NCBI GenBank assembly: GCA_012270675.1
Contig: JAAXHW010000063.1
Location: forward strand, 1 to 64,000
Origin: Candidatus Latescibacterota bacterium
GTDB lineage: Bacteria > Latescibacterota > UBA2968 > GCA-2709665
Direction: 5' to 3'
Length of the DNA stretch: 64,000 nt
Made by a program: the position numbers and the translations under genes. The notes beneath the pieces are model-generated. The model did not search any database. It saw only the letters and a list, made by a program, of their open reading frames with translations, and was not told the DNA's origin. Shown in pieces: positions 30,189 to 49,504 of this stretch; positions within the stretch are counted from its first letter, which is position 1, and each line of letters begins with the position of its first letter.

Positions 30189-33100
30189 CTAAATGGAGAA
30201 TCCGAAGTAGATCCGCCGGTCGTCTACGGGTATCGAGAGGGTGGGGTTGATCCGATCCGGGATCTCCTTGCGGGTGGGAAATGCGATTTGGAAATATCCA
30301 AATATGGGGAAAGCATAGTTGGAGAACATCTGCATCCGCAGTTCGAGCCCCCAGTCGGTGAGAAAAGCGGACCGCCTGAACCTGTTGTCGGAATCCAGGA
30401 GCGTTCGCAGGTTTTCAAAGTCTCCGGCCGCCCCGGTCTCGACGAAGAGGGCGCCGTAGATTTTGTCGAAGAAAAGGGGAGGCAGTTCCTTGTCGACCTT
30501 CTGAAAGATGGGGAACGTGAAGCTTGCCCGGCCGAAGAAGGCCTTGCCGCCCGCAATCGAGAAGTAGGGATAGCCCCTGAGCGTTCCGAACCCGCCCAGA
30601 TAGTAGCGCAGGGGATAATAGAACGCCCCTTCGAATGTGCCGCCGTCCAGCTGCACTCTTTTGATGGGTTTGTCTTTGTATCCCATAAACGCCTGGAGAG
30701 CGAGGGTGGTACGCCCGGGGAGGGCGATGAACTCGTTCCAGGAGGCGATGTATTCATTGATTCCCAGTTTCGCATTGTCTGCACGGTAGATGGTGGGGGA
30801 CGGATCGGTATCGGTGGGATCGGGGATGTTGTCCTGGTTCAGGTCCTGAGAGAGCGCCAGGGAGTCGGTGATCGTGGCGTTAATCCGGCGGTACCTGAAC
30901 GTAATGGCGCGCCCGCCTGTGGGGTTGAGATAGTTGTCCTTTGTCGGTTTGAAGTTGTAGTAACGCCAGCCGATGCCCAGATCGTTGCTCTTGAAGAAGG
31001 TGAGGTCCCGGTAGAGGAAATCGTCCATCACAACCTGGTCCTCTCCGGTGCCGGGGATCTGATCGGTGATGTCCTTCAGGGCTCCGGTTCCCGCATCTGC
31101 CTGGAGGTAGCGGGTGCTGTCCTGGAGCACCCGCGTGAGGCGAAGGTTCTCCGAATAGCGGCGGTGACCGAAGAAGAGGGTAACGGACTGGTTTCGGCCC
31201 ACGCCGATATTGGCTCCAACGTTGAAATCGGTGAATAGATGTTTGTAATCGTCTTCCTGGGTCAGGGAGAGATTGGTGTACTGCGTGATACGCGGGATAA
31301 TGACCTGCTGGGAGTCGATCACGGTGATGAGGGTGCCACTGGTGGTATCCCGCTGGGTGGCGATCACGTCCCGGTCGATCAGGCTGTTGATGGTCTGCCG
31401 GCTGGTGCCGATAAAGAGCTGCGGGCGGTAGGATTTCAGTTCGGTATTGACGGCCCCCAGACTTTTCTGGTAGGAGACAAACAGGTCGGAGTTGAGGTCG
31501 GTCCTCCGTTTGAGGTTTTTGCCCAGGGTAAGACCGGTTACAAAGGTATCGCTTCCCAGCAGATCCCCCCAGGCCATCTGCGCGCCGAAGCTGGCCTGAT
31601 TCAGGCCGAATCGGTTGCCGACGAAGGTGGGCCCCAGGACCAGAATGGGCAGAACGCCGTAGGAGGTCAGGCGGGTGGAGTAGCGCCCCGTGTTGTAGAG
31701 TTTGCTCAGGTCCTCTCCGGTGTAGATGCTCCCGTAGTCCCGCGACAGGGTGTCCACGGCAGCCACGGTGACGGCTGCGGACCGTCCGATGCGGTAGATG
31801 CTGTAGTTGGCATTGTGGTACCCGGCGTAGAGGATGTCCTTCCCGTCGGAGGAGATCGAGGGCGCAAAGGCCCCGCCGATTACGTTTGTGATCTGCTCCT
31901 GTCTGCCGGTTGTCAGGTCGTAGGTATAAAGGTTGAAGATGCCCGTCTGGTTGGAGCTGAAGAGGATACCACTGCCGTCGGGCAGCCAGACCGGGTCCCG
32001 TTCGTCGGCCCCGGAACGGATGAGGGCTTCAAACCCGGCGTTGTTGGCATAGGCCAGGCTGTCGGGGAACGCTTTGAGGCTGTCTTCCAGGGCTTTCTGC
32101 CTTTGGGCGATGCGGATGCTGTCGGAGACGGCACCCGTGCTGTCGGCGGCGGTCCTGGCGCTGTCCGCCGCCGATTGTTTGGATTTCTTTGGTTTGTCCG
32201 ATTTTGGTCTGATGTTTTTGATCGCTTTTGCCTTCAGGGTGGCGGCGTCGGCGTTGATGACCGCGATGTCCCGATCTTCTCCGCGGAAGACGCTGAAGAG
32301 AATCTTCTTCCCGTCTGGAGACCACTGGGGGCCATAGTACTGGGTGCCGTCATTGTGATGGGTCAAAAAGCGTCTGTTCGTTCCGTCGATGTTGACGAGG
32401 CCCAGGCTGTTGGTGCCGTCGCTGTTGTAGACGTACGCGATCTGTTTCCCATCGGGAGATACGGCCGGGTCTCTGCCCCTCAGCCCGACGGTGAGGCGCT
32501 GCTCTTTTTTCGTGTTCAGGTCGTAGGTAAAGATGTCCCACCGCCCCCCGGGCGTTTTGTTGTAGACCAATTTGCTTCCGTCGGGCGTCCAGCAAAAGCG
32601 GTTGTCCGCATATTTGCCGTACTTTCTCCCCTGTGCGACCTTCTCCACCTTCCGCGTGGCCAGGTCCATGACCATCAGCTTGGTCAGCGAGTTGTAGTCG
32701 CTGCCGTCGTTGCTGAGGAAGGCCATTTTCGTGCCATCGGGGGAGTAAACCGGGTAGTATTCCATGGAGCCCCCGTCGTAGATGTGTTCTCCTTCCCGTT
32801 CGCCCGCCGCGCGGATCGAATCGGCCAGGGCACCGTAGGTCGCGTTGAGGTGTTCGGACCACTCCCGGTAGAGCTGGTTAGCCGAAATGCCGAGGCTCTT
32901 TTTGACGGCCGATTTGAAATTGATGATCGGCCGCTGTTCGACCATGGCCCGCACGGCCGCTTCTCCATACGTTTCTTCTACATAGTTTAGAAGGGCGAAC
33001 CCCTGGTTGTAGACCATCTCGGCGCGGAAGCTGTCTTTGCCGCGCAAGTAGCCCATGTTGGTATAAGAGTGCACATCGTCTTCCAGCGTTGCCATACGCA

Positions 33101-33821
33101 GCAGCATGTCCCGGTGGGTATCCCAGAAGTCGCCCCCATTTTTTTGGGACTCGTACTGCGCGATGCCTTCCGAGAACCAGTTTGGGACGGCCATGTGGTA
33201 GATGGGAAACGAGAAAATGAAGTCGGGGTTCTGGTTGGACCGGCTGGTACTGATAATTCCGAACATAAAAGGCAGGCTGGTATGGGCCGCCTTAAGCGTG
33301 ATATGGTGCGTCAGTTCGTGGGTAAACACGTCCCGGATCCAGTCTTTTGTTCCCCGCGTATCGAAGGCCGCCGGCGTGGACCAGAATGCGATAAAGTTAT
33401 ACCAGTATGCCGAGTAGGCATTGCCCAGGTAATCGACGCTGTCGTCTACATAGACCTGAACGGGGGCAAAGCGATCAATTGAGGTGGGATAATGTTTGGA
33501 AATCTCTTCGAAGATCTCATCACAGATTTCGGCGATCCGCCGGGCGGTGTGTTCGGCGCTTGTGAAGTAGATCGCGAAGTACTTGGTGCGGATGGCCCGG
33601 GCGTACGGGCCTGTCAACCCGAGCAGGGTGGGAAAGAAGGTGTTTTTCTCCGGTTCCCATTTGTATTTGGGCTCGGGGCGGTTGAAGGGGATATCGGCCA
33701 GGTCGGTGACGGGCTTGATTTTGTTGACGAGGAACTGGGCTGCGGCCCGGTCCGGCCGTCCGGCCGTATGGAGCGTGCTGAGGAGCAACGCCAACACTGC
33801 AAAAAATTTTAGACGGTTCAC
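30189..33821 (-). CDS. Secreted gluzincin protease + PD40 beta-propeller + Omp85/BamA-like beta-barrel fusion (1210 aa)
   Basis: Signal peptide; HELTHH with WFSEGIAQYES; at least six PD40-type repeats (YSPDGTKMAF, WTPDGSKLVY, VSPDGKQIAY, WSPDGKKILF, WLPDGSGILF, ISSDGKDILY); C-terminal GGFGTLRGYPYFSIAGGKAFFGRASFTFPIF. Confidence 0.82.
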   Translation of the reverse strand: MNRLKFFAVLALLLSTLHTAGRPDRAAAQFLVNKIKPVTDLADIPFNRPEPKYKWEPEKNTFFPTLLGLTGPYARAIRTKYFAIYFTSAEHTARRIAEICDEIFEEISKHYPTSIDRFAPVQVYVDDSVDYLGNAYSAYWYNFIAFWSTPAAFDTRGTKDWIRDVFTHELTHHITLKAAHTSLPFMFGIISTSRSNQNPDFIFSFPIYHMAVPNWFSEGIAQYESQKNGGDFWDTHRDMLLRMATLEDDVHSYTNMGYLRGKDSFRAEMVYNQGFALLNYVEETYGEAAVRAMVEQRPIINFKSAVKKSLGISANQLYREWSEHLNATYGALADSIRAAGEREGEHIYDGGSMEYYPVYSPDGTKMAFLSNDGSDYNSLTKLMVMDLATRKVEKVAQGRKYGKYADNRFCWTPDGSKLVYNKTPGGRWDIFTYDLNTKKEQRLTVGLRGRDPAVSPDGKQIAYVYNSDGTNSLGLVNIDGTNRRFLTHHNDGTQYYGPQWSPDGKKILFSVFRGEDRDIAVINADAATLKAKAIKNIRPKSDKPKKSKQSAADSARTAADSTGAVSDSIRIAQRQKALEDSLKAFPDSLAYANNAGFEALIRSGADERDPVWLPDGSGILFSSNQTGIFNLYTYDLTTGRQEQITNVIGGAFAPSISSDGKDILYAGYHNANYSIYRIGRSAAVTVAAVDTLSRDYGSIYTGEDLSKLYNTGRYSTRLTSYGVLPILVLGPTFVGNRFGLNQASFGAQMAWGDLLGSDTFVTGLTLGKNLKRRTDLNSDLFVSYQKSLGAVNTELKSYRPQLFIGTSRQTINSLIDRDVIATQRDTTSGTLITVIDSQQVIIPRITQYTNLSLTQEDDYKHLFTDFNVGANIGVGRNQSVTLFFGHRRYSENLRLTRVLQDSTRYLQADAGTGALKDITDQIPGTGEDQVVMDDFLYRDLTFFKSNDLGIGWRYYNFKPTKDNYLNPTGGRAITFRYRRINATITDSLALSQDLNQDNIPDPTDTDPSPTIYRADNAKLGINEYIASWNEFIALPGRTTLALQAFMGYKDKPIKRVQLDGGTFEGAFYYPLRYYLGGFGTLRGYPYFSIAGGKAFFGRASFTFPIFQKVDKELPPLFFDKIYGALFVETGAAGDFENLRTLLDSDNRFRRSAFLTDWGLELRMQMFSNYAFPIFGYFQIAFPTRKEIPDRINPTLSIPVDDRRIYFGFSI

Positions 33822-33922: not shown

Positions 33923-34909
33923 TCAAATCGGCTCTTTCTGCCTCGTTCTGAGGATGCAGGCAACGCTGTGTCTTCTACCGATTTCGAGGAGGTCGGGGAC
34001 AATGCGGGTGCAGGCCTCCTCCCGTTCGGGACAGCGGGGATGAAAGGGGCATCCGGGCGGTACGTTGGCGGGACTGGGGACATCGCCCGGGAGCACGGTG
34101 CGCTGCCTTTTGACCCGGGGATCGGGAATGGGCACCGCAGAGAGCAGCGCCCGGGTGTAGGGGTGCTGGGGGTTTGCGTACAGGGTCTGGCTGTCTGCGA
34201 TTTCGACAATACGCCCCAGGTACATGACGGCCACCCGGTTGGAGATGTGTTTCACCACGCTCAGGTCGTGGGCCACGAAGAGGTAGGTGAGCCCGAACCG
34301 GGCCTGGAGGTCCTGAAGCAGGTTGATGATCTGGGCCTGGATGGAGACATCAAGCGCCGAGACGGGTTCATCGGCTACGATAAACCGGGGGTTGACCGCC
34401 AGCGCCCGGGCGATGCCGATGCGCTGGCGCTGTCCGCCGGAAAATTCGTGCGGGTAGCGGCGGGCGTAGTCCGGTCTGAGGCCCACGGTTTCCAGGAGAT
34501 CGGCCACGCGGTTGTGGCGGTCGTTCCCGTTTGCCAGCTTGTGGATTTTTAACGCTTCTGTAAGCATCCCTCCTATGGTCATCCGGGGGTTGAGAGAACC
34601 GTAGGGGTCCTGAAAAATGATCTGTATCTGGTGCCGCATGGCCCGGAGGCCCTTCCGTTTGAGCGTAAGCACATCAACGCCGTTAAAGCGGACCTGGCCT
34701 TCCGTGGGTTCGATCAGGCGGAGGATGGTTCTGCCCGCGGTGGTTTTCCCACACCCGGACTCGCCCACCAGGCCGAGGGTTTCCCCCTTCTGGATGGTCA
34801 GGGAGACGCCGTCTACGGCTTTGACCTGCCCCACGGTCCGGGAAAAAATGCCCCGGGTGATGGGGAAGTATTTCTTGAGGTTGCGGACTTCCAGAAGCGG
34901 TTGGGACAT
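33923..34909 (-). CDS. oppF: Oligopeptide ABC transporter ATP-binding protein OppF
   Basis: Walker [25 protein letters not shown] signature, C-terminal [14 protein letters not shown]. Confidence 0.93.
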
Positions 34910-34911
34910 GT

Positions 34912-35913
34912 TCAGGTCGATTCGGCAACGGGTGAAGCGGGATATCCCTGCGCCATCCAGCATGCCACGGCGTGTCCCCCGTCGATTTGCAATAAGGCGG
35001 GTTGCTGTTCCCGACAGATGGCCTCGGCATCTGGGCAGCGGGGGGAAAAGCGACAGGCCTGGGGGAAGTGGACGGCATCGGGCACGGTGCCGGGAATGAC
35101 CGAAAGGCGTTCTTTCTGTTCGTTCAGTTTGGGCACTGAGGCCAGAAGCCCCCGGGTGTAAGGGTGCCTGGGATCGGTAAAGATCTCCTCCACGCGTCCG
35201 GTTTCCACGATTTTTCCGGCGTACATGACCGCCACCCGGTCTGCGACTTCGGCGATGATGCCCAGGTCGTGGGTGATCATCAGGACGGCCATCCCGAAAT
35301 CCTGCTGGAGCTGTGTCAGGAGTTCCAGGATCTGGGCCTGGATGGTTACGTCCAGGGCGGTGGTCGGCTCGTCGGCGATGAGGATGTCGGGGGTGCAGGA
35401 GAGGGCCATGGCGATCATGACCCGCTGGCGCATGCCGCCCGAGAGATGGTGGGGGTACTCATTCGCCCGCCGGGCCGGGTCGGGAATGCCTACCTTCTGG
35501 AGCATGTCCACGGTTTTTTTCCGGGCGGCCGCCCTGCCGAGGCCCTGGTGGCGCACGACAGCCTCGTCAATCTGGCTTCCGCAGGTGAAAACCGGGTTGA
35601 GGCTGGTCATAGGCTCCTGGAAGATCATGGCGATGTCGTTGCCCCGCACATCGCGCATGTCGTGCTCGCTCAGGCTTAAGAGATCGCGCCCTTCAAAGCG
35701 GATTGCGCCCGATACGATTTTGCCCGGGGGCTGGGGGACGAGGCGCATCATGGAGAGGGAGGTGACGCTTTTTCCGCATCCCGACTCTCCCACCAACCCC
35801 AGGGTTTCCCCTTTTTGAAGGGTGAACGACACGCCGTCCACCGCCTGCGCCACGCCGCCGTGAATATAGAAGTACGTTTTTAATTTTTCGACTTGTAGAA
35901 GGGATTCCGACAT
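34912..35913 (-). CDS. oppD: Oligopeptide ABC transporter ATP-binding protein OppD
   Basis: [46 protein letters not shown]. Confidence 0.93.
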
Positions 35914-36022
35914 AGATCTCCGTCGAATTTTCACCGGATGCTACGACATTGTTGGGTTGGACTCCCGGGGGCCCTGTTGCGTTCCCATTTTAATCCTTCA
36001 AACGCGTTTTCGCTTCCCGGGT

Positions 36023-36751
36023 TTAGAAGAGGGGCAGGTTGAGGTTCAGCCAGTCTTCCAGGAGAAAGCCGACCCGGCCGATGAGGAGGGAGAGACGGGC
36101 CATAATCGTATATCCGAACGATGCGCCGAAGGAGACCATCAGGAACCAGATGCCGACTCTGGAGGCGGTCCCGATGGCACCGGTGTGTTCGACTGAGAAG
36201 AAGAAGTAGATCAGGACGGTTACCACACCGATGAGGATGATCAGCAGGTTCAGGCCCTCCAGGCTCCAGCTCAAGGGCTTGAGGGTCGGCTCGATCTGGG
36301 CCAGGAGGGCGGCGGAGATGGTCCTGGGAATGCTGAAGCCGGCCCCCAGCCCCACGAAGAAGGCGAACGCGATCCGGCTGGGCCACCCGAACCTCCGGGA
36401 GAATCGGGTCAGCATCAGGAGGCCCAGCAGGGTAGGGACGATCAGCCACCAATCGATTGTTCCGGAGGCATCAAGGCCGAAAAACGTGATGATAATTTCG
36501 CCGTACAGCGTCGGGTACCATACCTGACCGAAGGTGTAGCCCGCTGCAATGCCCACGTAGACGTGTTCGGCAAATTTGAACAGCGGGTTGTCCCGGTACA
36601 GGAAGCTGTACAGGGCCAGCGTAAGTCCTGCAGCCACAATGACGCCGAGGCCCTCCCAGTTCGCCGTGAGGGCGCCGGTGATCAGCAGGAAGCCGTTGAC
36701 GAGGACCAGAAAGAGGATAAAGCCCAGAAAGAGGACGGTGTCGCGGTTCAT
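36023..36751 (-). CDS. Polytopic membrane protein of unknown function (unit A)
   Basis: 242 aa with several hydrophobic segments; 4-nt overlap with upstream gene. Confidence 0.75.
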   Translation of the reverse strand: MNRDTVLFLGFILFLVLVNGFLLITGALTANWEGLGVIVAAGLTLALYSFLYRDNPLFKFAEHVYVGIAAGYTFGQVWYPTLYGEIIITFFGLDASGTIDWWLIVPTLLGLLMLTRFSRRFGWPSRIAFAFFVGLGAGFSIPRTISAALLAQIEPTLKPLSWSLEGLNLLIILIGVVTVLIYFFFSVEHTGAIGTASRVGIWFLMVSFGASFGYTIMARLSLLIGRVGFLLEDWLNLNLPLF

Positions 36752-37599
36752 GGCCGGGCCCTCCCTGTTGAATTGTCGGACCTGGAGGACCGGCGCTGGA
36801 GAAAGTACATGAGATTCCCCAGTACAATGAAGAGAATGATGACAAGGTGGGTGACCGACTGCGGGCGCATCCCGGTGGTGGCCGTTCCGGTCCGTTTGAC
36901 CAGCGCTTCATACTCGGCCGCGCCGGCCAGGCCGCCGATGAGGCCCACAAGCTGCTTTGACTGGAGGTAGGGGAAGAGGTCGGGTGCGATGACTGCGGTG
37001 CATCCGGCGCCCAGCGGGAATTTGTACTTTTCCTGGCCATAGGGAATCCAGATGCCGTCAACCGTGTCTCCGGCCCCGAAGTCGAACACAAAGCCGAAGT
37101 CCTTCAACGTGCGCAGGTTGCGGGTGACCGCCAGGCTGTCCGTGCGGGCGCCTGTGAAATCCCGGGGGAAGGCGCTGTGGAGGTCCTGGCCCATATTGAT
37201 CACGACGCTGGCTCCTCCCGGTTTGTATCCCATAAACGCGTAGTCGACGCCGGAGGTCTTGCCGAACTCTGCTGCGGCCGTTTCCAGGGCCTTCTGCGCC
37301 AGGCCGGGGGCGTCGGGCCAGAGGCAGACGGCCACGATTTTGACGTTGCGGCTGAAGCAGTGGCGCAGCAACGCGAGGGCCATCGGCTGGAGTTCGGGTT
37401 CGGACCCCGGGCCGTAGTCGAAGGCGAGGAGCACCGTGCCGCCCTCATCGGCCGTTCGCTCGATTTCCCGGTAGACCGCCCGGACGGTGGAGGTCGGCTT
37501 GATGGGGAAGGTGAATTCGGCCAGCAGGGGGATGAGAACCCCCAGAAAGACGAAGACGAAGATGGTGCGACGGTCCAGGTTCATCAGACGTTCGGTCAT
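36748..37599 (-). CDS. Bitopic protein of unknown function with large globular domain (unit B)
   Basis: N-terminal TM and C-terminal TM flank a ~210 aa domain; 4-nt overlaps at both ends. Confidence 0.75.
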   Translation of the reverse strand: MTERLMNLDRRTIFVFVFLGVLIPLLAEFTFPIKPTSTVRAVYREIERTADEGGTVLLAFDYGPGSEPELQPMALALLRHCFSRNVKIVAVCLWPDAPGLAQKALETAAAEFGKTSGVDYAFMGYKPGGASVVINMGQDLHSAFPRDFTGARTDSLAVTRNLRTLKDFGFVFDFGAGDTVDGIWIPYGQEKYKFPLGAGCTAVIAPDLFPYLQSKQLVGLIGGLAGAAEYEALVKRTGTATTGMRPQSVTHLVIILFIVLGNLMYFLQRRSSRSDNSTGRARP

Positions 37600-38252
37600 T
37601 CCTCACCTCCTCCGATATAGGCACGCTCGATGCCGAAGATGATCCGCAGGGATGTGGCGATGGCCCCCAGGCTCACGCCCAGGAGAATGCCCCGCTTGGC
37701 GGCCAGGTTAGGAACAGCCATCAGCCACTGGGATGCCTGGGGGATGAGATCGGAGATAAAGGCCCCGATGGGTACGCGCCCCAGCATCACCACCACGGCC
37801 GCGACCAGCAGGATGGCCGCCTCGGGGGTCCGCGCCCGGAAGGTCCGGTAGGCTGCCGAGGCGATGAAAAAGGCCAGGATGGAGAACATGGTGGCGCCGG
37901 CGGGCACCTGCACGTGGAGGAAGAGCCACTGGTAGCCCCCTGTTTTCGCCTGGGCACTGAAGGGGCCTTGTCCGTCGTTGTAGAGGACAAAGAAGCACAT
38001 CAGGGCGAAGCTGATGTAGACGATGAGGCTGTAGCCCCACCCGGCCTGACGGCGGCGGATACGCCCCCAGTGGAGGTTGAGCAGGCTGAAGAGGCCCAGA
38101 AAAAAGGCGAAGGCATATACGATGCGCAGCCAGAGGGAGAGTGTTTTCTCCAGATCCTGGGCATCGGCGTGGGGGATGTAGTAGATGGCAATGCCGATGA
38201 TTCCAAAAACAAAGGCGACGATCAGCGGAAGGGTGCGTCTTAAGAAGAGCAT
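37596..38252 (-). CDS. Polytopic membrane protein of unknown function (unit C)
   Basis: 218 aa, about six hydrophobic segments. Confidence 0.75.
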   Translation of the reverse strand: MLFLRRTLPLIVAFVFGIIGIAIYYIPHADAQDLEKTLSLWLRIVYAFAFFLGLFSLLNLHWGRIRRRQAGWGYSLIVYISFALMCFFVLYNDGQGPFSAQAKTGGYQWLFLHVQVPAGATMFSILAFFIASAAYRTFRARTPEAAILLVAAVVVMLGRVPIGAFISDLIPQASQWLMAVPNLAAKRGILLGVSLGAIATSLRIIFGIERAYIGGGEE

Positions 38253-38262
38253 AGGCCCCTCC

Positions 38263-39474
38263 TTATGATGGTGTGAACATATGGGTTAGAATGGGGTATC
38301 CAAACGTGGCCGCCAGCGTGCCCACGATCAAGACAAAAAGCAGAATGGCCTTGCCGACATCCTGCCCTTTGAGGCTTCCCAGCAGCCTGGGTTCGCGCGC
38401 TAGGTAGGCGCTGGCCGCGTAGAGTTCCTCTCCCATCAGGGTGTAGTCGCAGGTGGTGACAAAGAAGGGAAGCTGGGTGTAGGCATCGGTGCCGGCGATC
38501 TGGATGGCCCCGGTGGAGGCTCCGGTTTCGGCCAGGAGCAGGGCCTCGGCGTAGAAGTAGCCCATCATGATGTTCGTCGCGGGACGCTCACGGACCATCA
38601 TGCCATCCACGGCGGCCGCGTAGCTGAACTGGTCCGTGGCGGCCAGGAAGACGCTGTCGGGGTTGAAAGCGTCCGGTCGGCCCGCATCCAGATAGGCCTC
38701 TTTGACCACCTCCTGGCTGACGGCCATCACCACAGGGTCGAAGTTGGCCACCCGCAGGACGGTGTCGTATTCGGCGGTTCTGTGGGCGACCCGTGCCAGG
38801 ATGTTGACGGCCGCGATGGTGGAGACCCTGTCCATGCCGGCCAGGCCGTGTGCAAAGAGCACGGGTTTGCCCATTTCGGTGGCCCGGCCCAGGGCCTCGT
38901 CCAGGGCTTCCAGGCCGGCGATACGACGGATGTAGAGGTCTCTGCGCCTGGCCAGGGCGATATAGACCAGGATGATAATGGAGAAGACAGTACCCAGGAT
39001 AAAGTTGTTCAGTTTCGCCCAGTTGAAGAGGTTGCCGTAGGCCTGGGCCTGGACGACCGTTGTGCCTTCGACGATCGATTCGCCCATTTGCACGTCAATT
39101 CGGGCGTAGTAGGACTTTTTGTCTTCAAGGGAGACCTTCCGGGGTGCTTCTCCCGGAATCGTATACCCACCCAGGTGTACAAAGTGATGGTTGCTGTTTT
39201 CCGCCTTATGGCCGAAGGTGGCCGGATCGTCGGACATCAGGTTGCCCGCTGCATCGACCTCGGCCGCGGGATAGAACGGGCCTTCCCGGGACTCGGCGAC
39301 CAGAATCCGGTAGACCGTCCCCGGAGGTGCCGAGCTGGACCGGGGCCAGGTGAGGGTGATGCTTTTGCCCGCGTCGTTGGGGGTGTCGATGGCCCTGACT
39401 TCAGCGGGGGGAGACACCTGCTGGGCGGTGGCGGTTCCCACAAGGAGCGCCAGGGAGAGGATGAGGTATTTCAT
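38263..39474 (-). CDS. Secreted/membrane protein: signal peptide, FN3-like domain, TM, conserved cytosolic-type domain, C-terminal TM (unit D)
   Basis: MKYLILSLALLVGTATAQQ; ITLTWPRSSSAPPGTVYRILVAES FN3-like; TM before LARRRDLYIRRIAGLEALDEALGRATEMGKPVLFAHGLAGMDRV. Confidence 0.7.
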   Translation of the reverse strand: MKYLILSLALLVGTATAQQVSPPAEVRAIDTPNDAGKSITLTWPRSSSAPPGTVYRILVAESREGPFYPAAEVDAAGNLMSDDPATFGHKAENSNHHFVHLGGYTIPGEAPRKVSLEDKKSYYARIDVQMGESIVEGTTVVQAQAYGNLFNWAKLNNFILGTVFSIIILVYIALARRRDLYIRRIAGLEALDEALGRATEMGKPVLFAHGLAGMDRVSTIAAVNILARVAHRTAEYDTVLRVANFDPVVMAVSQEVVKEAYLDAGRPDAFNPDSVFLAATDQFSYAAAVDGMMVRERPATNIMMGYFYAEALLLAETGASTGAIQIAGTDAYTQLPFFVTTCDYTLMGEELYAASAYLAREPRLLGSLKGQDVGKAILLFVLIVGTLAATFGYPILTHMFTPS

Positions 39475-39490
39475 TTTATGCCTCCAGAGG

Positions 39491-40618
39491 TCATCCTTCG
39501 ATGAGTTCCACATTCGCCCGGGGGACGACCGCCCGGACGCCGTCTTCGAACTCGACTTCCAGCACGCGTACCAGGGTTTCCGAGTCTACTTTCCGAAGCT
39601 CGGCAGGCAGCGCGGTGACCCGGCCGATTTTTCCGAAATAGGGGGCCCGAATCGCCCGGAGCAGCGCACCTGAGGAGAGTCCTTCCCGGGTTGCTGCGAG
39701 GTCTGCGGGAGGGCGTGCCGATGCGTCCGGGTGCGGGATGATGATTTCGGGGCGCAAGACGCCCGCCCGGATCTGGGTGGCGCCCGAGATCGAGGCCTCC
39801 TGCCCGGCGCGCTCTTTGAGGATCTCGAAGGTTTTGCGGGCGATGGCGATTTCGCCGAATCCTTCGGTTACGATAAGGGTGAGTCCGACTTCCTCCGTGC
39901 CTGTGATTGCGACCCCCAGGTCGTAGCCGAGCAGGTCGCACAGGTCCCGGTCGCGTATGCCGCCGCCGATGAGGCCGATGGCGCCTGCTTCCTGTGCCCG
40001 GCGAACGGCTTCGAGGGTGAGCAGGCTCCCTCCGACGACGATTTTTCCCTCACAGGCGTCGTCGATCTGTTGTGCGCTCAGGATCTGGTCGGGCGCATCC
40101 ACCACGGGGTGAAGTGTGCCCCAGCGCTCGCCTCCCACCCCGAAGATGCCCTGGAGAAACGCGCCGTTTGTTTCTATGACCACACCTTCGCCGGGGATGA
40201 TTTCCACAACGGTTCCGTCCACATAGGCCCGGACCTGAACCGGGCGGGGCGATTCGCGGAGCAGGACCTGGCCAGTGACGGGCGAGATGCTTTCCACGGT
40301 CCCGGTGACGGGGGACGCGACCGTTGTTTTGAACCATTTGATGAAGGGGCGGGTCTGGGCAAGGGGTTGCCCGGCCTCCACCGGTTCGCCCTCTTTTTTG
40401 AGCATATAGGCCGGGAGTTCGTCGGGGGTGACGCCGAGCCGGTTGACCAGATTCAGGGTGGTCACGTTTCCGGGCAGGTCGGTCCGGGCCACGACCTGGT
40501 CCCGCCGGACGGTTTCCCCCCGGGCAACCAGCACGTCGCCCGCAAGGGGAAGCTGTCGGCGTTTTCGGAGGGTGGCCTGCCGGGTTACGCGCAGGCCGGG
40601 GGTGTATGCGTGGGCCAT
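39491..40618 (-). CDS. Soluble protein with lipoyl/biotinyl-like (barrel-sandwich) N-terminus and KOW/SH3-like C-terminus (unit E)
   Basis: LPLAGDVLVARGETVRRDQVVARTDLPG, VASPVTGTVESISPVTGQVLLRESPRPVQV; C-terminal YFGKIGRVTALPAELRKVDSETLVRVLEVEFEDGVRAVVPRANVELIE. Confidence 0.65.
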   Translation of the reverse strand: MAHAYTPGLRVTRQATLRKRRQLPLAGDVLVARGETVRRDQVVARTDLPGNVTTLNLVNRLGVTPDELPAYMLKKEGEPVEAGQPLAQTRPFIKWFKTTVASPVTGTVESISPVTGQVLLRESPRPVQVRAYVDGTVVEIIPGEGVVIETNGAFLQGIFGVGGERWGTLHPVVDAPDQILSAQQIDDACEGKIVVGGSLLTLEAVRRAQEAGAIGLIGGGIRDRDLCDLLGYDLGVAITGTEEVGLTLIVTEGFGEIAIARKTFEILKERAGQEASISGATQIRAGVLRPEIIIPHPDASARPPADLAATREGLSSGALLRAIRAPYFGKIGRVTALPAELRKVDSETLVRVLEVEFEDGVRAVVPRANVELIEG

Positions 40619-40626
40619 AGTAGAAA

Positions 40627-40707
40627 CCGTGAACTGTGAAACCGTAGACGTGAAGGTTTATTTTTGCAGGGGGGACGATTTGCCGTTTGTCGTTTCACTT
40701 TTCACAT
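40627..40707. repeat. Degenerate heptad-periodic intergenic repeat (site B)
   Basis: CCGTGAA CTGTGAA ACCGTAG ACGTGAA ... TTGCCGT TTGTCGT TTCACTT TTCACAT. Confidence 0.6.
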
Positions 40708-42746
40708 CCAGTATGTCGGTAGAGGTAACACCGGCAGGCGTGGGTATCCGCAAAGGCGTATTCGGGCGGATATTGCCGGTCGCATTCGTCCATGCGGTCC
40801 GGACAGCGGGGGTGAAAATGGCAGCCGACCGGAGGGTGGACCGGGGAGGGTACATCGCCGGTGAGCCGAATTTTTTCCACGCCTGTGTCGGGATCAATCT
40901 GAGGGACGGCGGAGAGCAGGGCGCGCGTATAGGGATGTTTGGGGTTGTTGAAGATTTCGTCTTTGGCACCCCATTCCACGATGCGTCCCAGGTACATTAC
41001 GGCGACCTCATCCGCAAGGTAGGCCACCACTGAGAGGTCGTGCGTGATGAGCAGGTAGGTCAGGTTCCGCTCCGCCTGGAGTTTTTCCAGGAGGTTGATG
41101 ATCTGCGCCTGTACCGACACGTCCAGGGCGCTGGTGAGTTCGTCGCAGACGATGAACTCGGGATCAACGGCCAGGCACCGGGCGATGCCGATGCGCTGCC
41201 GCTGCCCCCCGGAGAATTCGTGAGGATAGCGGTGGACCATTTCGGGCGACAGTCCGACCTGTTCCATTAAGGCCCGGGCCCTGTCCAGCCGGTCCTTCCG
41301 GTTTTCACCGATGCCATGCGCTTCCATGCCTTCCGTGAGGGCCTCGCCGACCATCATACGGGGGTTCAGGGAGCTGAAGGGGTCTTGAAAGACGATCTGG
41401 AGTTTCCGGCGGTAGGGTTTGAGGGCCGCGTGGGACAGGGTGGTGAGGTCCACGCCCCCGTATTCGACCGTGCCTCCGGTGGGCCTGAGGAGCTGGATGA
41501 GCGCTTTTCCCAGGGTGGTTTTGCCGCACCCGGATTCTCCTACCAGCGCCAGGGTGCGGCCTCTGCGAACCGTGAGGTCTACGCTGTCTACCGCGCGGAC
41601 ATATCCGACAGTGCGCTTAAACAGCCCGCGTTTGATGGGGAACCAGAGCCTGATCCCGTGCGCGGCAACGAGGGGAGATGTTTCAGCATTCTGCTGTGCC
41701 CGCGCCCTTTTGGGGGGGGCTTCGCGGACTTCAGCCGGAGATACCGGCCGGCCCATGATCTGTTCGTCGTACAACAGGCAGGCCGCGCGGTGGCCGTTTT
41801 CCCGGGAGATGAGCCGGGGTTGCTGTATTTTGCAGATGTCCATCGTCCGGTGACACCGGTCCGCAAACCGGCAGCCGGGGGGGAACCGGGTGGCCCCGGG
41901 CACACGGCCCTCGATGGTCTGGAGGGCTTCGCCCTGTTTCCGGCGCGTGGGCAGCGATTGGAGCAGTTTGATGGTGTAGGGATGGGCGGGGTCGCGGAAA
42001 AGGGTTTTCCGGTCCGCTTCTTCCACGATTTTGCCGCCGTACATGACCGCGACGCGGTCCGCGTTTTCGGCCACGACGCCCAGGTCGTGGGTGATGAGCA
42101 GAACGGCGGTTCCGAATTCACTCCGGAGGTCTCTGATCAGGGCCAGGATCTGTTCCTGGATGGTTACGTCTAGGGCGGTTGTGGGTTCGTCCGCAATGAG
42201 GAGGCCCGGGCGGCAGGCGAGGGCCATGGCGATCAGGACGCGCTGTTTCATGCCACCGGAGAGCTGGTGGGGATATTCTCTGAACCGGAGGGCGGGTTCG
42301 GGGATTTTGACCATGTCCAGCATCCGAATGGCTCTGGCGTGCGCTTCGGCGCTGTCCACGTCCTGGTGCCGTTTGATGACTTCGACGATCTGGTTGCCCA
42401 CGGTGAATACCGGGTTGAGGCTGGTCATAGGCTCCTGGAAGATCATGGAGATTTCGTTGCCGCGCAACTTGCGCTTCTCGACTTCGGGGATGCGGACGAT
42501 GTCTTTGCTTTTGTATTCGATGGCGCCCCCTGCGATGAAGCCCGCGGGTTTCTGGATGAGCTGGATGACGGAGAGCGCGGTGACGGTTTTGCCGCATCCG
42601 GACTCTCCCACCAGCGCAAGGATTTCGCCCCGGTGGATGTCAAACGACACGCCGTCCACCGCTTTTGCGATGCCCTCGGCCGTACGGAAATAGGTCTTGA
42701 GGTCTCGCACCCTGAGGAGCACGCCATTGGAGGTTGTTTGCGCCAT
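40695..42746 (-). CDS. Fused OppD-OppF type peptide ABC transporter ATPase (two ABC domains)
   Basis: Two Walker A ([24 protein letters not shown]) and two signatures ([22 protein letters not shown]). Confidence 0.93.
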   Translation of the reverse strand: MAQTTSNGVLLRVRDLKTYFRTAEGIAKAVDGVSFDIHRGEILALVGESGCGKTVTALSVIQLIQKPAGFIAGGAIEYKSKDIVRIPEVEKRKLRGNEISMIFQEPMTSLNPVFTVGNQIVEVIKRHQDVDSAEAHARAIRMLDMVKIPEPALRFREYPHQLSGGMKQRVLIAMALACRPGLLIADEPTTALDVTIQEQILALIRDLRSEFGTAVLLITHDLGVVAENADRVAVMYGGKIVEEADRKTLFRDPAHPYTIKLLQSLPTRRKQGEALQTIEGRVPGATRFPPGCRFADRCHRTMDICKIQQPRLISRENGHRAACLLYDEQIMGRPVSPAEVREAPPKRARAQQNAETSPLVAAHGIRLWFPIKRGLFKRTVGYVRAVDSVDLTVRRGRTLALVGESGCGKTTLGKALIQLLRPTGGTVEYGGVDLTTLSHAALKPYRRKLQIVFQDPFSSLNPRMMVGEALTEGMEAHGIGENRKDRLDRARALMEQVGLSPEMVHRYPHEFSGGQRQRIGIARCLAVDPEFIVCDELTSALDVSVQAQIINLLEKLQAERNLTYLLITHDLSVVAYLADEVAVMYLGRIVEWGAKDEIFNNPKHPYTRALLSAVPQIDPDTGVEKIRLTGDVPSPVHPPVGCHFHPRCPDRMDECDRQYPPEYAFADTHACRCYLYRHTGCEK

Positions 42747-42753
42747 ATGCCGA

Positions 42754-44175
42754 CTATTCCGTTCGCAGTCTGGGGTCCAGGGCATCCCGGACCGCGTCGC
42801 CGAAGATGTTGGCAGGCAGGACCAGCCCGAACATGAACACAAAGGCCGCAAGCAGGTTCCACCAGACGATCGGATCTCGCGATATTTCCAGGCGGGCAGC
42901 GTTGATCATGTTCCCCCAGCTTTCCATGGAGGGGTCCACGCCGATGCCGACATAGGCCAGGACCGCTTCGGCCAGGACCAGCCCGCTAAAACGCAGGATC
43001 ACCGAGATCAGTACGATGTGCATGACATTGGGGAGGATGTGCCGGAACATGATTTTAAGGTGGCCCACGCCGAAGGCTTCCGAGGCCTGAATGTATTCGT
43101 TCTCCCGCACCCTGAGCGTTTCGCCCCGGATCAGGCGGCACAGCCCGGTCCAGCTTCCGATGCCGAGTACGGCACAAAGCCAGGCCAGCCGGATGTCGGA
43201 GGCATAGACTGTGTGCATCTGCTGGATTTTTGTGGTGACGATCAACATGGCCGCTGCGATGAGCAGGATGCCTGGAATCGAACTCAGGGTGGTGTAGATG
43301 TACTGGATCAGATCGTCCACCCGGCCTCCGAAATAGCCTGCCATGATCCCGAAGAGGATGGCCACCGGCGTGGCGATAAGCGTTGTCAGTGTGCCCACAA
43401 TCAGGCCGACCCGACAGCCTTTGATCGCTCGAAAGAGGACGTCCCGTCCGACCTGGTCTGTACCCAGGAAGTGGTATTTGGCGGAGAGCACTGCCATGAC
43501 CGAGACGATCAGCGCAGCAGCCCCCAGAAAGGCACCTGCCTTAAGGCCGGTCCGGAGGGCGGAAGCGGGGGATGGGCTTCCCTCCGGCGCAACCGATCCG
43601 AAGTGAACATATCCTGCGTATACACCTGCGGTCAGACCGGCCAGCAGAATGCCGATTCCCAGGCCGGCCAGCATCCCTCTGAGGACCAGCTCCAGGATGT
43701 CCCCGGCCTTTTCGTCCGGGTTTTGCAGGTGGCTGCCGCCATAGACCAGGGGCGGGTAATCTCTTATCCGGGAGCCGTCTTTCCGCTCGATCAGTTCTTT
43801 GGTAAACTGCCGGGTTGCGAACGGAGCGGAGAAGGTTTTTTCCGTGCGACCTCTCAGGCCGGTGCAGAAGAGGTCGAGGAGGGAGAGGATTTCCGCCCGG
43901 TAAGCCGGGCGCCCGTCCGCCGTTGTCTGCGCCTCACCGCCTTCCGCATAGGCCCGTTGCTGAAAATGGACGGAGTCGAGCAGTGCGACCAGGGTATAAA
44001 GCAGCACGATTCCCATGCAGACCATAGGCAGCCGCCTGGCTCTGATCTGTCGCCAGGCCGTTTTGTAGTACTCCCGCCTGCGGGCAAAGAACAGAAATCC
44101 GATTCCGCTTAGGACGAGCAGAAAGACCAGAACATCTGTGGTGAGAAAGACGAGTTTGAATTTGCCGAAGGTCAT
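42754..44175 (-). CDS. Peptide ABC transporter permease (OppC-type), expanded
   Basis: LGTDQVGRDVLFRAIKGCRVGLIVG...; about 473 aa with long extra region between first TMs. Confidence 0.88.
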   Translation of the reverse strand: MTFGKFKLVFLTTDVLVFLLVLSGIGFLFFARRREYYKTAWRQIRARRLPMVCMGIVLLYTLVALLDSVHFQQRAYAEGGEAQTTADGRPAYRAEILSLLDLFCTGLRGRTEKTFSAPFATRQFTKELIERKDGSRIRDYPPLVYGGSHLQNPDEKAGDILELVLRGMLAGLGIGILLAGLTAGVYAGYVHFGSVAPEGSPSPASALRTGLKAGAFLGAAALIVSVMAVLSAKYHFLGTDQVGRDVLFRAIKGCRVGLIVGTLTTLIATPVAILFGIMAGYFGGRVDDLIQYIYTTLSSIPGILLIAAAMLIVTTKIQQMHTVYASDIRLAWLCAVLGIGSWTGLCRLIRGETLRVRENEYIQASEAFGVGHLKIMFRHILPNVMHIVLISVILRFSGLVLAEAVLAYVGIGVDPSMESWGNMINAARLEISRDPIVWWNLLAAFVFMFGLVLPANIFGDAVRDALDPRLRTE

Positions 44176-44184
44176 GTCGCGTTT

Positions 44185-45504
44185 TCACTCGAATCGAATC
44201 CTGGGATCGACCAGGGTGTAGGAGATGTCCGTCAGGATCAGGCCCAGGATGTAGAGGCCGGAGCCGAGAAAGACCATGGCCTGGACAATAGCGAAATCCT
44301 GCCGCTGGATCGCCTCCAGGGTAAAACTACCCATGCCGGGAATGGAGAAGAACGATTCCAGGACGAGGCTGCCGATGAAGAGGAACGGGATCGTCACGAC
44401 GACGCCCGTCAGGACGGGAATCATCGCGTTTTTGAGCGCGTGCTTGAACAGGACCAGGGATTCGGGCAGTCCTTTGGCGCGGGCGGTACGGATGTAGTCC
44501 CGGCCGATCTCTTCCAGGAAGATGGTGCGATACCACCGCACGCCCCCTCCTATGCCGCCAAGGATGCCGATGACCACGGGCAGGGCAACGAATTTGGCCG
44601 CGTAGATGCCGGTATCGTAGCCGGACACCGGGACGAGGCGCAGCATTTTGCCAAATAGCCACTGGCCGCCGATGACGTAGAACAGAACGGAAATCGACAT
44701 CATGATCACGCACGCGAATACGCCCCAGAAGTCGAGGTACGTGCCCCGATAGAAGGCGATGATCATGGCAGCGGTGATGTTGACCAGGATACCGATGAGA
44801 AAGGTGGGCGTCGTGATGGCCAGGCTGGGTCCGATGCGTTTGAGAATTTCGTCTCCGATGTTGCGGCCATCGTCGGACTTGCCAAACTGGAATGTAAGAA
44901 ATTTGATCGATTTTTTCCAGAAGACGGTTTCCGTAATCCGGGAGATCAGCGAGAGATGCTCTTTGTAGAAGATGCGCACCACGGCCATCGGCGCACCTTC
45001 CGAGGGGGTTGCGGTGAGGCTCAGGCGGTGGTATTGCCGGTCTGCGTGGAGGCGCTCCAGCTGGAATTGCCACTCACCGCGTGTGGTGCTGTGCAGATCG
45101 AGCCGCAGGGTTTTCCTATCCCCGAACGACGGAGGGAGCGTCAGGGCGGCGGTCGCGTCCGTGGCGATGGCCAGGTCCAGGGCGCCGTCGGCGGGTTTGG
45201 GGACGTCGATTCGGACCGTATAAGCGCCCGCCAGCTGCGCGGGGAGGCTCAGTTCGACGGGCGTACCGCTGACCTGACGAACGGCGACTTCCGACCAGCC
45301 GGTGTTGTAGAAATAGGGCAGATGGTAATCGCGCTCACGTTTCCATTTTGCGATCTGCTCTTCGGTCACCCGTTTGACGCCCAGGTGGATGCGGGCCATG
45401 TCGTCGGGGGTATTGACGAAGAAGAAGAGGACAAAGGTGATGAGGTTGACACCGATCAGGATCGGAATCGCGTAGAGCACCCGGCGCAGGATGTAGGTCG
45501 TCAT
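44185..45504 (-). CDS. Peptide ABC transporter permease (OppB-type) with inserted beta-rich periplasmic domain
   Basis: IRRVLYAIPILIGVNLITFVLFFF; EEIGRDYIRTARAKGLPESLVLFKHALKNAMIPV. Confidence 0.88.
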   Translation of the reverse strand: MTTYILRRVLYAIPILIGVNLITFVLFFFVNTPDDMARIHLGVKRVTEEQIAKWKRERDYHLPYFYNTGWSEVAVRQVSGTPVELSLPAQLAGAYTVRIDVPKPADGALDLAIATDATAALTLPPSFGDRKTLRLDLHSTTRGEWQFQLERLHADRQYHRLSLTATPSEGAPMAVVRIFYKEHLSLISRITETVFWKKSIKFLTFQFGKSDDGRNIGDEILKRIGPSLAITTPTFLIGILVNITAAMIIAFYRGTYLDFWGVFACVIMMSISVLFYVIGGQWLFGKMLRLVPVSGYDTGIYAAKFVALPVVIGILGGIGGGVRWYRTIFLEEIGRDYIRTARAKGLPESLVLFKHALKNAMIPVLTGVVVTIPFLFIGSLVLESFFSIPGMGSFTLEAIQRQDFAIVQAMVFLGSGLYILGLILTDISYTLVDPRIRFE

Positions 45505-47708
45505 GGGCCTTCGACGCCTCTTTCACGCTTCCAGACCGCGACGACGGCGGGGACCGCTCCCACGGTCAGAAGGGCGAAGACCAGGACGACCGGCCACCAG
45601 ATGGGTTTGTTCCACTCCCGGCGCCGCTTTTCCCTCAGTTCAGGATGCAGCTTTTTGTATTTGAGGGTGTTCATGCCAATCGTCATCGGTTTGGTATTGG
45701 TATACCATTCGTGGTAGAGGCCGAAGGAGACGGGGTGGTAGCCCCACAGCCAGGGCGCATCCTGCCGCGCGATCTCCAGCATCCGGTCGATAAGCGCCAT
45801 CCGCTCCGGACCGTTTTGCATCGACTCTACCTGTTCGAAGAGGCGGTTGAACTCCGGGTTGTCGTAGTTGTTGTGGTTTGCGCCTCCGTGTTTTACCTGT
45901 CCGTTGGGACCGTAGAGCAGAAAGAGGAAGTTTTCCGGATCGGGATAGTCCGCGTGCCAGCCCCAGAAAATGATCTGAAAGTTTCCTTTTTTGACTTTGT
46001 CCCGGAAACGGTTGTAATCCGTTTGGCGGATTTGAAGGTCCACGTTCAGCTTGTTGAATTGCTTGCGCAGCCAGTCCAGCCTGGGTTTTGCCGCAGCCCC
46101 GGTCCAGGCGGTGTCAAAATAGAGCACCAGGGCGTTGGCGTTCCTGTCCTTTCCGTCCGGATAACCCGCTTCCGCCAGCAATTTCCTGGCAAATTCAATC
46201 GATTTGCGAGACGGCCTGTTCTTGATCTCGTCCCATTCATAGACGAATCGGTTGATCCCATCCTTGCCGGTCCGGTAGCCGAATATCCCCGGCGGCAGCA
46301 GGTCCTGGGCCGGAAGACCCCGGCCGTTGAGGAAAATCTGGATCCATTCTTCTATGTCTACGGCGATGGAGAGGGCCTGCCGGAGTTTTTGCCTGTCTTC
46401 CGTATACCCGCCGACAACATCGTCCAGCATATTGAAAGCGAAGTAAAGTGTGGTAGGGTACACGGCCCTTGCCAGACGCACGCCCTGCGCCTGCAGCCTG
46501 TCGGACAGTTCCAGTCCTGCCTCATCCATTTGGACCGCCTGGTCGAACACTTCTGTCATGATTCCGGAGGATTCATAATAGCCCTGGAGGAATTTGCTCC
46601 AACGGGGAATCGCCTCTTTCTCCAGTTTGTAGATTGCCTTTTCAATAAATGGGAGCGGCTGGCCGGCGTCTGACAGGAGGCCGAGTTCGCGGTCTTCGGG
46701 TGCTCCATCGTCGGGATAGTATTCCCGGCGGAAGTTGGCGTTTTTGACCATAACGATCTCTTTATTGGGAAGAAATCGGTCCATTCTGTAGGGGCCGGTT
46801 CCCAGCGGACGGTTGTCGAGGCTCAGGTTTCGCTTGACGAGGGGTGCCTGGGTGAAAAAGCGGTCCGCCTCTCTGGGCAGGGGTGAAAAGAAGGGCATGG
46901 CCATCCATAAGATAAACTGCGGGTACTTTCGCTTGAGCGTGACCTGATAGGCGTATCTGTCAATGGTGCGCACCCCCTTCAGATCGAAACGATCCAGGTC
47001 CAGCCAGATGGGGTTTTCCCGCTCGTCGTTCTCCTGGTTGTAGAGCGCGCCTCTGGCTTTTTTCCGTTCGGAGCGGATGCGAGACAGTTCGCCTCCCAAC
47101 TCCTGGGCGAGTTCATCCAGGCCCAGGATGTACTTGGCCATTGTGCTGAAGATAGGGGATTGAACCCTGGGGTGAGCCAGACGCTTGATCTGGTAGACAT
47201 AATCGGCCGCTGTCAGTTCCTGCGTTCCCTTTAAAGGGAAGTCGCCGATGTCCGTGATTCCCAGCATCTCCCCCTCGGTCAGGTTGTGGTAAGCAACCTG
47301 TCCGTCTTCGGTTCTGGCAAAGCAGGGATGGTCCTGGTAGAAGATGGACGGCCTGATGCGCACCGTGTATACCGTCCGGTCGACCTTTTCCGGAAGGGGG
47401 TCGCCGGGAAGCGTTTTCCCCTCCTTATCGTAGTAGGTCGGACGAGGAATCTCTGCTGCTGTTAGAGGGATCAGTTCATACGGCCGTTTTAAGTAGTGGT
47501 ACTGGAGCGGCGGTTCATAGATTTGCTGGATGAAGTGGTATTCGCCGGATGAATACGATACGGCCGGATCCAGGTGTTTGGGCGGCTCGGAGAATGTGCT
47601 GTAAAGGTAGTTCCTGTCGGCCTCTTCCCGGCGGTAGGGGTTGTTGGTACACGACGGAGACGACAGCAGCAGAACCAATGGCCAGATGAGATAAGCGGTC
47701 GATTTCAC
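45501..47708 (-). CDS. Peptide-binding protein (SBP_bac_5-like) with lipoprotein-type N-terminus and C-terminal TM anchor
   Basis: LLLSSPSC lipobox-like; LYSTFSEPPKHLDPAVSYSSGEYHFIQQIYEPPLQY; RPLGTGPYRMDRFLPNKEIVMVKN; C-terminal WWPVVLVFALLTVGAVPAVVAVWKRER. Confidence 0.85.
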   Translation of the reverse strand: MKSTAYLIWPLVLLLSSPSCTNNPYRREEADRNYLYSTFSEPPKHLDPAVSYSSGEYHFIQQIYEPPLQYHYLKRPYELIPLTAAEIPRPTYYDKEGKTLPGDPLPEKVDRTVYTVRIRPSIFYQDHPCFARTEDGQVAYHNLTEGEMLGITDIGDFPLKGTQELTAADYVYQIKRLAHPRVQSPIFSTMAKYILGLDELAQELGGELSRIRSERKKARGALYNQENDERENPIWLDLDRFDLKGVRTIDRYAYQVTLKRKYPQFILWMAMPFFSPLPREADRFFTQAPLVKRNLSLDNRPLGTGPYRMDRFLPNKEIVMVKNANFRREYYPDDGAPEDRELGLLSDAGQPLPFIEKAIYKLEKEAIPRWSKFLQGYYESSGIMTEVFDQAVQMDEAGLELSDRLQAQGVRLARAVYPTTLYFAFNMLDDVVGGYTEDRQKLRQALSIAVDIEEWIQIFLNGRGLPAQDLLPPGIFGYRTGKDGINRFVYEWDEIKNRPSRKSIEFARKLLAEAGYPDGKDRNANALVLYFDTAWTGAAAKPRLDWLRKQFNKLNVDLQIRQTDYNRFRDKVKKGNFQIIFWGWHADYPDPENFLFLLYGPNGQVKHGGANHNNYDNPEFNRLFEQVESMQNGPERMALIDRMLEIARQDAPWLWGYHPVSFGLYHEWYTNTKPMTIGMNTLKYKKLHPELREKRRREWNKPIWWPVVLVFALLTVGAVPAVVAVWKRERGVEGP

Positions 47709-47710
47709 GG

Positions 47711-49504
47711 TTATGCTCCGTACGGGTACAGTTCCAGCGCTCTGTTCCACGCCATAATTCGCTCCACCCGCTCCTCTGTGTCTTCAGGAAAGGCGATGGG
47801 CCGGCCCCGGCCGTCCAGAATCAGGCCCGCCACGCCGCCTTTCACAGTTGTACGCAGTTCCTGTCCCTGTCCTGCGCCCGCATCCCACCGCCGGGCAGGC
47901 TGGAGACGGATCTCGGCATCGGCGTTGTCGGGCAGGGGGAAGAGGCGCAGGTCGCCTACGTTCAGGTCTCCCGATCGGGTGCCGTCGGGCAGGATGATTT
48001 CGTAGGTTGTACAGACTTCTCCCGGTTTTCCCTGGCCGACCGGGGCGACGCAGGTCCCCAGGGTGATGAGGCAGTCCCGGTCGAAGACCTCAGCGGCGGC
48101 CTGTTCGTTTACGGTGGAGAGCACGCCGAGGTGGGGCATCATGAAGATGCTGTCCACGACCAGGCGGGTGACGCCTTCGGGCTGGAAGGCGTCGACGAGC
48201 ATGGCGGCGGCCTGCACCCGGCGGGGGGCGTGGGAGAGCACGCCGCCGCTGCCGATGAGCACGTCGAGGTCGCGCATTTGAATGAGGCTCTCGCCGGTTT
48301 CGGTCTGGTCGAAGACGTCGGAGAGGGTGCGTTCGGTCTGCACGCCTTTCAATCCGACGGCCAGGGCGCAGTGCTGGGCGAAGGCAAGGCGGAGGGCCTC
48401 CCGGGCGATGGCCTGTTCCATCTGGAGTTCCTCCAGCGTCTGGGGGACCGTGGTGGGGCGGATCATTTTGTTTTTGATGCGGTCCCTCAGATCTGCCTCG
48501 TCGATGCGGAAGGGCACCCAGCGCATGATGGCTTCCAGTTCGGCTTCGGCCAGGACGTTGGAGATGCTGTAGGACATGCCCAGATTGGCGCTGACGGTCC
48601 GGTTGAAGACCTGGTCGAAGACGCTGAAGACATCGGTGGTGGCCCCGCCGATGTCAACGCCGATGAGGTTGATGTTCCGCTGCCGGGCGGCGGTTTGCAT
48701 GATCAGCCCGACCGCGCCGGGAGTGGGCATGATGGGAGCGCCGGCCCATTCCATGAGCTTTCGATAGCCGGGTGCCTGCGCCATGACGTGTTCGAGAAAG
48801 AGGTCGTGGATGACCTGCCGCGCCGGGCCCAGCGTTTCCTGTTCGAGCCGGGGGCGGATGTTATCGGTGAGGGTAAGCGCGGTTTTACTTCCCAATACCT
48901 TTTGAATGCTTTCACGGGCGTCTCTGTTCCCTGCGTAGATCACGGGGAGTTGAAATCCGGTCCCGAACCTGGGCCTGGGGTCGGCGGCGGCGATGAATTC
49001 GGCGAGTTCGACGACGTGGCTGACCGTTCCCCCGTCGGTTCCACCCGAGAGGAGGACCATGTCGGGCCTCAGGTGGCGGATGCGCTCGATTTTCTGGTGG
49101 GGCTGGCGGCCGTCGTTGGAGGCCAGCACGTCCATGACAATGGCTCCGGCACCCAGGGCCGCGCGCTGTGCGCTTTCTCCGGTCATGGACTGGACCACAC
49201 CGGCGACCATCATCTGGAGCCCACCCCCGGCGCTGCTGGTGGAAATGTAGATATCGACGCCGCGGTCGCCCCCGGCGGGGGTGAGGATACGCTCGCCGTC
49301 CAGGATCTTGCGACCCGAGAGTTCCTCTACTTCCTGGATAGCGTTGAGCACGCCCCGGGTGACGTCCTCGAAGGGGGCTTCCACGGTGGTAGGGGCCTCC
49401 CCCCGGCAGGTCTGGCGGTAGACGTCTCCGACTTTCTCGATGAGGATGGCCTTGGTGGTGGTGCTGCCGCAGTCGGTAGCGATAACGACGTTCAGGTTAT
49501 CCAT
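47711..49504 (-). CDS. glmL: GlmL/MutL-family protein (glutamate mutase accessory/reactivase family, ASKHA-like)
   Basis: VVIATDCGSTTTKAILIE, TPAGGDRGVDIYISTSSAGGGLQMMVAG, LIGVDIGGATTDVFSVF, LIGSGGVLSHAPR. Confidence 0.82.
   Translation of the reverse strand: MDNLNVVIATDCGSTTTKAILIEKVGDVYRQTCRGEAPTTVEAPFEDVTRGVLNAIQEVEELSGRKILDGERILTPAGGDRGVDIYISTSSAGGGLQMMVAGVVQSMTGESAQRAALGAGAIVMDVLASNDGRQPHQKIERIRHLRPDMVLLSGGTDGGTVSHVVELAEFIAAADPRPRFGTGFQLPVIYAGNRDARESIQKVLGSKTALTLTDNIRPRLEQETLGPARQVIHDLFLEHVMAQAPGYRKLMEWAGAPIMPTPGAVGLIMQTAARQRNINLIGVDIGGATTDVFSVFDQVFNRTVSANLGMSYSISNVLAEAELEAIMRWVPFRIDEADLRDRIKNKMIRPTTVPQTLEELQMEQAIAREALRLAFAQHCALAVGLKGVQTERTLSDVFDQTETGESLIQMRDLDVLIGSGGVLSHAPRRVQAAAMLVDAFQPEGVTRLVVDSIFMMPHLGVLSTVNEQAAAEVFDRDCLITLGTCVAPVGQGKPGEVCTTYEIILPDGTRSGDLNVGDLRLFPLPDNADAEIRLQPARRWDAGAGQGQELRTTVKGGVAGLILDGRGRPIAFPEDTEERVERIMAWNRALELYPYGA

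Follow-up and report, generated by a model that had tools for sequence, protein, structure and literature searches.

The stretch of DNA analysed here, hereafter the window, comprises 64,000 nucleotides of an 81 kb contig from a Latescibacterota-type metagenome-assembled genome (3.99 Mb, 94% complete). Its minus strand carries a block of five genes, E, D, C, B and A in the direction of reading, of which E (39491-40618) encodes a soluble protein of 375 residues and D (38263-39474), C (37596-38252), B (36748-37599) and A (36023-36751) encode membrane proteins, the last three of 218, 283 and 242 residues respectively. An initial annotation of the sequence had recognized these five open reading frames and all were recovered at the same positions and on the same strand, together with the 4-nt ATGA overlaps it had described between C and B (37596-37599) and between B and A (36748-36751). 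The open frame of D extends over 38263-39513, with the likely start provided by the ATG at 39474 which lies behind CTGGAGG; moving the start to this position removes the overlap between E and D and gives a protein of 403 residues.

Clustering of neighbouring genes identified two additional components on the same strand, a GlmL/MutL-related ASKHA ATPase of 597 residues (47711-49504) and a small conserved protein of ~115 residues, s120 (49497-49844, with an inferred TTG start), the 3′ end of which overlaps the ATPase start in the window. Both are preceded by a gene for a small membrane protein of 156 residues (49810-50280, minus strand). In the window lineage a complete opp/dpp set for a peptide ABC transporter (40695-47750, minus strand) lies between E and the ATPase and s120; it consists of a binding protein (45501-47750), two permeases (44185-45504 and 42754-44175) and fused ATPases (40695-42851). 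Following A on the same strand are an OppD-like (34912-35934) and an OppF-like (33923-34963) ATPase, together spanning 33923-35934, without permeases. The opp-type gene sets that had been noted on both sides of the block are real, as is the E-D-C-B-A block itself; the proposal of a five-gene unit, however, missed the ATPase, s120 and the small membrane protein, which belong to it too in relatives of the window. After the OppD/OppF-like pair, positions 30189-33821 encode a protein of 1210 residues that contains WD40-like (PD40) repeats and weakly matches peptidase-MA; members of its family often lie near the block in the window's relatives (16 loci, from the best 80 of the 245 stretches introduced below).

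Protein E combines a barrel-sandwich hybrid domain, a conserved middle domain and a KOW/SH3-like end. The barrel-sandwich assignment, made originally from the sequence alone, is borne out by matches to RnfC_N in 40 of 47 relatives (best E 1.4e-6) and to Biotin_lipoyl in 39, with NQRA_N matched in 16 of the 47, while the KOW-like end receives only weak support (KOW and KOW4_SPT5 in three of 47 each). No lysine within residues 66-121 of E is invariant among the 47 members, the most relevant positions being K94 (25/47) and K97 (30/47), and the absence of a conserved lysine from the barrel-sandwich domain makes lipoylation or biotinylation, which had been raised as something to look for, unlikely and unsupported. 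An LplA-type lipoate ligase (50322-51200) lies directly upstream of the block and is kept in several Latescibacterota loci; it is a tempting partner given the fold of E, but the conserved lysine is lacking. An RraA-like swivelling domain in E was also considered and rejected, the local alignment being weak (P 0.016) and based on a poor six-sequence profile. E contains a dense invariant motif, GATQIRAG, and a comparable one in D, QxPFFxxxCDYTxMGEE, reads CDYTLMGEE at its core; judged from sequence conservation, these motifs suggest ligand or catalytic sites.

The signal peptide, FN3-like domain and transmembrane (TM) segments originally attributed to D were all found, in the order FN3-like domain, TM, soluble domain, TM. 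What had been overlooked is that the soluble domain and last TM constitute DUF6754 (PF20539; E 1.5e-113, 378.7 bits against a Pfam gathering score of 27), which D matches across the whole domain. PF20539 is a domain of unknown function that is not named in any paper of the literature searched, and searches for DUF6754, PF20539, IPR046642 and PF13941, which covered no preprints and few subscription papers, found no literature. The AlphaFold model of D is confident (pLDDT 92.6) and presents a Rossmann-like soluble domain, yet a fold search with this model returned no match at E ≤ 0.001. The nearest solved folds, without significance, are Moco carrier proteins: a portion of the D model superposes on 6y01 and 2iz7 with probabilities of 0.99-1.0 and TM-scores by target of 0.52-0.54, but with E values of 3e-3 to 8e-3 and rmsd of 7.5-8.8, and D is membrane-anchored, so the resemblance is at the level of the fold only.

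The topologies first ascribed to the remaining proteins agree with prediction, C having six TMs, A being polytopic with about seven, and B presenting a Rossmann-like alpha/beta domain between two TMs. From the positive-inside distribution of charge around the TMs, the soluble domain of D is predicted to be cytosolic and that of B to lie outside. None of C, B and A matches a known family, family searches giving nothing above cut-off, and neither A nor C matches a permease in Pfam or NCBIfam. B likewise yields a confident AlphaFold model (pLDDT 95.2), with which a fold search found no match at E ≤ 0.001 and none that was convincing. PDB sequence searches with profiles of A-E gave no match below E 0.1. 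Homology to a characterized complex, which would have refuted the idea of an uncharacterized one, was looked for and no confident match emerged; no PADLOC model for anti-phage defence was matched either. The predicted order of secondary structure elements is alike in the soluble domains of B and D, but profile comparison gave no support for their homology and it is not claimed; none was detected between A and C.

The ATPase matches Pfam MutL (PF13941) over its full length (E 8e-131; 437 bits against a cut-off of 27) and in this shares with the GlmL/Or-4 ASKHA family its conserved ATP-binding motifs, the ASKHA phosphate motifs being intact in 48/51 and 51/51 of the operon ATPase sequences. It differs in carrying a C-terminal extension of ~115 residues and in scoring below the curated GlmL cut-offs, at 232.1 bits against 475 for the NCBIfam equivalog NF040745 and at 164 bits against 204 for the GlmL-family model; three more operon ATPases (L033, L065 and L099) reach 223-236 bits against the GlmL model. 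GlmL is the accessory protein of methylaspartate mutase, and the glutamate mutase E subunit (PF06368) is absent from the window genome and from 62 of 63 other genomes of the phylum. With scores below the cut-offs and the mutase present in just one of 64 Latescibacterota genomes, identification of the ATPase as the glutamate-mutase accessory GlmL was rejected. The sole genome of the phylum with PF06368 (G057) has a second MutL which adjoins the mutase E subunit, and another (G021) encodes a true GlmL (560 bits) beside a MutS-like subunit, plus a separate operon ATPase. A true GlmL also adjoins a MutS-like subunit at L110:1025-2937, in a genome without PF06368, where it possibly serves another B12 mutase.

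With D as query, a single scan of 84,980 species genomes gave 245 encoding stretches, the best 80 of which were resolved into 79 loci; the breadth across phyla described here is based on this one scan only. Many of the 79 loci are incomplete at contig ends, and counts given for testable cases required enough flanking DNA. Neighbour families f16, f18 and f36 were left out because they had the appearance of antisense ORFs. Within this set, taken from the best 80 of 245, E-D-C-B-A is complete and colinear on one strand in 52 of the 79 loci, and C, B and A follow D for 64 of 67 testable D genes. E was found in 61 loci, s120 (about 115-120 residues) in 49 and the small membrane protein in 22, the latter restricted to the window's relatives and Zipacnadia, while the ATPase lies upstream of E in 48 and s120 in 46 of 53 testable loci. 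Record titles of these same loci name Latescibacterota, Gemmatimonadota, Planctomycetota (including Brocadiaceae and Scalindua), Nitrospirota, Armatimonadota/Zipacnadia, Zixibacteria, Coatesbacteria, Edwardsbacteria, WOR-3, Elusimicrobia, Poribacteria, Oligoflexia and Deltaproteobacteria; several of the Gemmatimonadota-titled loci are probably Latescibacterota. E-D-C-B-A is a widely conserved block across about a dozen phyla, far beyond chance. Two Armatimonadota loci (L091 and L105) present E-D without recognizable C, B and A nearby.

Co-occurrence of the genes in other genomes, on which the initial annotation had made its case depend, is found both in loci across phyla and within Latescibacterota, where, of 64 genomes, 54 encode D, 54 the ATPase (E < 1e-20) and 56 E. 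D occurs together with the ATPase in 51 of the 64, seven have neither, and six, mostly incomplete genomes, have one alone. Six genomes lack D, the ATPase and E together, among them a whole family (f7) of four genomes that are 80-97% complete. In a tree of D the sequences cluster by phylum far above shuffled labels and show old duplications, so that the block is not a recent mobile element, with transfer between phyla not ruled out.

Two or three D-C-B-A sets are found in L060, L071, L093, L098, L099, L102 and L103, some of the extra sets being cut short (no A is recognized in the second set of L102, for example), whereas E, the ATPase and s120 are single in such loci wherever they are present. 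The exception is L094, where a second set, in convergent orientation, comes with an s120 of its own and a piece of the ATPase. The two copies of D found in Zixibacteria and Coatesbacteria fall into separate clades, each of which contains members of both phyla. That the extra copies come as D-C-B-A quartets indicates that the membrane quartet behaves as a unit of its own, apart from the soluble components, and suggests a division into a membrane module and a cytosolic energizing module. By inference alone, D-C-B-A might function as a dimer, made of identical quartets in Latescibacterota and of different ones in lineages where it is duplicated. In L093, L100 and L103, D-C-B-A occurs without E or the ATPase within the stretch examined.

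Several explanations have to be weighed for a block of this kind. The reading we consider most likely is an ATP-driven machine of the inner membrane, and its main rival is a membrane-bound enzyme comprising E, D and B that is activated or repaired by the GlmL-related ATPase. GlmL, Or-4 and BadF-type activators are thought to activate or repair their enzymes, and the nearest relatives of the ATPase are GlmL and Or-4; the density of the invariant motifs in E and D is typical of active sites. Such an enzyme nevertheless seems somewhat unlikely, as A-E match no known enzyme family and their alignments show no conserved pattern for haem, Fe-S, B12 or covalent flavin, a finding that argues against a B12 enzyme and equally against an Rnf- or Nqr-related ion pump driven by redox chemistry. 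The latter idea derives from the RnfC/NqrA-like barrel-sandwich domain of E and the frequency with which its family matches RnfC_N and NQRA_N. This likeness is confined, however, to the N-terminal region, E lacking SLBB and Fe-S domains and being otherwise unrelated by profile searches, and with neither A nor C matching an Rnf or Nqr family the pump, already disfavoured, is scarcely credible.

Two other readings take the surroundings or the architecture of the block as their starting point. D-C-B-A could be an accessory part of Opp/Dpp peptide import, driven by the OppD/OppF-like ATPases, pairs of which follow A without neighbouring permeases in Latescibacterota as well as at three loci of Planctomycetota (L076-L078) and may represent a functional link to the block; most other phyla lack them, however, opp genes are not beside the block in most loci of those phyla, and neither A nor C fits an Opp permease model. 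The opp set between the ATPase and E is absent in L033-L035, L039 and L048 and present in L045 and L069. We regard the opp sets as mostly neighbours specific to a lineage, and a part in peptide import as decidedly improbable. In two Anammoxibacter loci (L076:13023-15635 and L078:13731-16299) a response-regulator gene lies between the OppD-like and OppF-like genes after A. The block could also encode a scaffold or a sensing complex of the envelope that moves nothing and whose ASKHA protein is structural like PilM or FtsA; this reading would be in keeping with the sharing of one gene block by ASKHA, small and membrane proteins and with the FN3-like outer domain of D. It is rather improbable given that the ASKHA ATP-binding motifs are intact and that no Pfam match to PilM or FtsA appeared, albeit without a dedicated comparison.

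We therefore return to the ATP-driven machine, which we put forward tentatively: E, D, C, B and A would, with the ATPase and s120, form a two-module machine of the inner membrane whose substrate is unknown. Its computed basis is the gene set, its order and co-occurrence, module-wise duplication, intact ATP-binding motifs and the predicted folds and topology; formation of a complex, energy coupling, direction and substrate are inferred and a biochemical function has not been shown. The membrane module would be D-C-B-A, with about 17 TMs and with the Rossmann-like domains of D and B predicted to lie inside and outside respectively, and E, acting as a barrel-sandwich adaptor, would make up the cytosolic module together with s120 and the GlmL-related ASKHA ATPase. 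As it binds and hydrolyses ATP, the ATPase may change the shape of the E/s120/ATPase assembly, which would dock on D, C and A, the movement being relayed across the membrane to B and resulting in transport or remodelling of a ligand held by the Rossmann-like domains. Counting against such a machine are the lack of direct evidence for complex formation and transport, the failure of A and C to match any transporter family, and loci with partial gene sets; furthermore, GlmL-family ATPases are, to our knowledge, accessory proteins of B12 enzymes and not motors. The broader proposal of a new class of primary active machine, combining a GlmL-related ATPase of ASKHA fold, a barrel-sandwich adaptor and a four-subunit core with Rossmann-like domains on both faces, D-C-B-A acting as a homo- or heterodimer, is unlikely on present evidence.

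The suggestion of a multi-subunit, previously uncharacterized membrane complex is supported, on genomic grounds, by the conserved order, the co-occurrence, the duplication of D-C-B-A and the lack of a homologue in the literature or among solved structures, although that the proteins physically form a complex remains an inference. No described system has this composition within the literature and databases searched, which included no preprints and few subscription papers. Nearly all Latescibacterota carry the block, which turns up across about a dozen phyla, most of them uncultured and among them anammox Planctomycetota and Nitrospirota; keeping four membrane subunits together over such a range is a usual mark of a core envelope function. 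Learning what the block does would provide a role for DUF6754, a divergent GlmL-like ATPase family and several unnamed families, and would also show whether ASKHA ATPases can power membrane machines. A variant of the gene arrangement is seen at L032:11436-13459, where two B genes stand side by side within one block.
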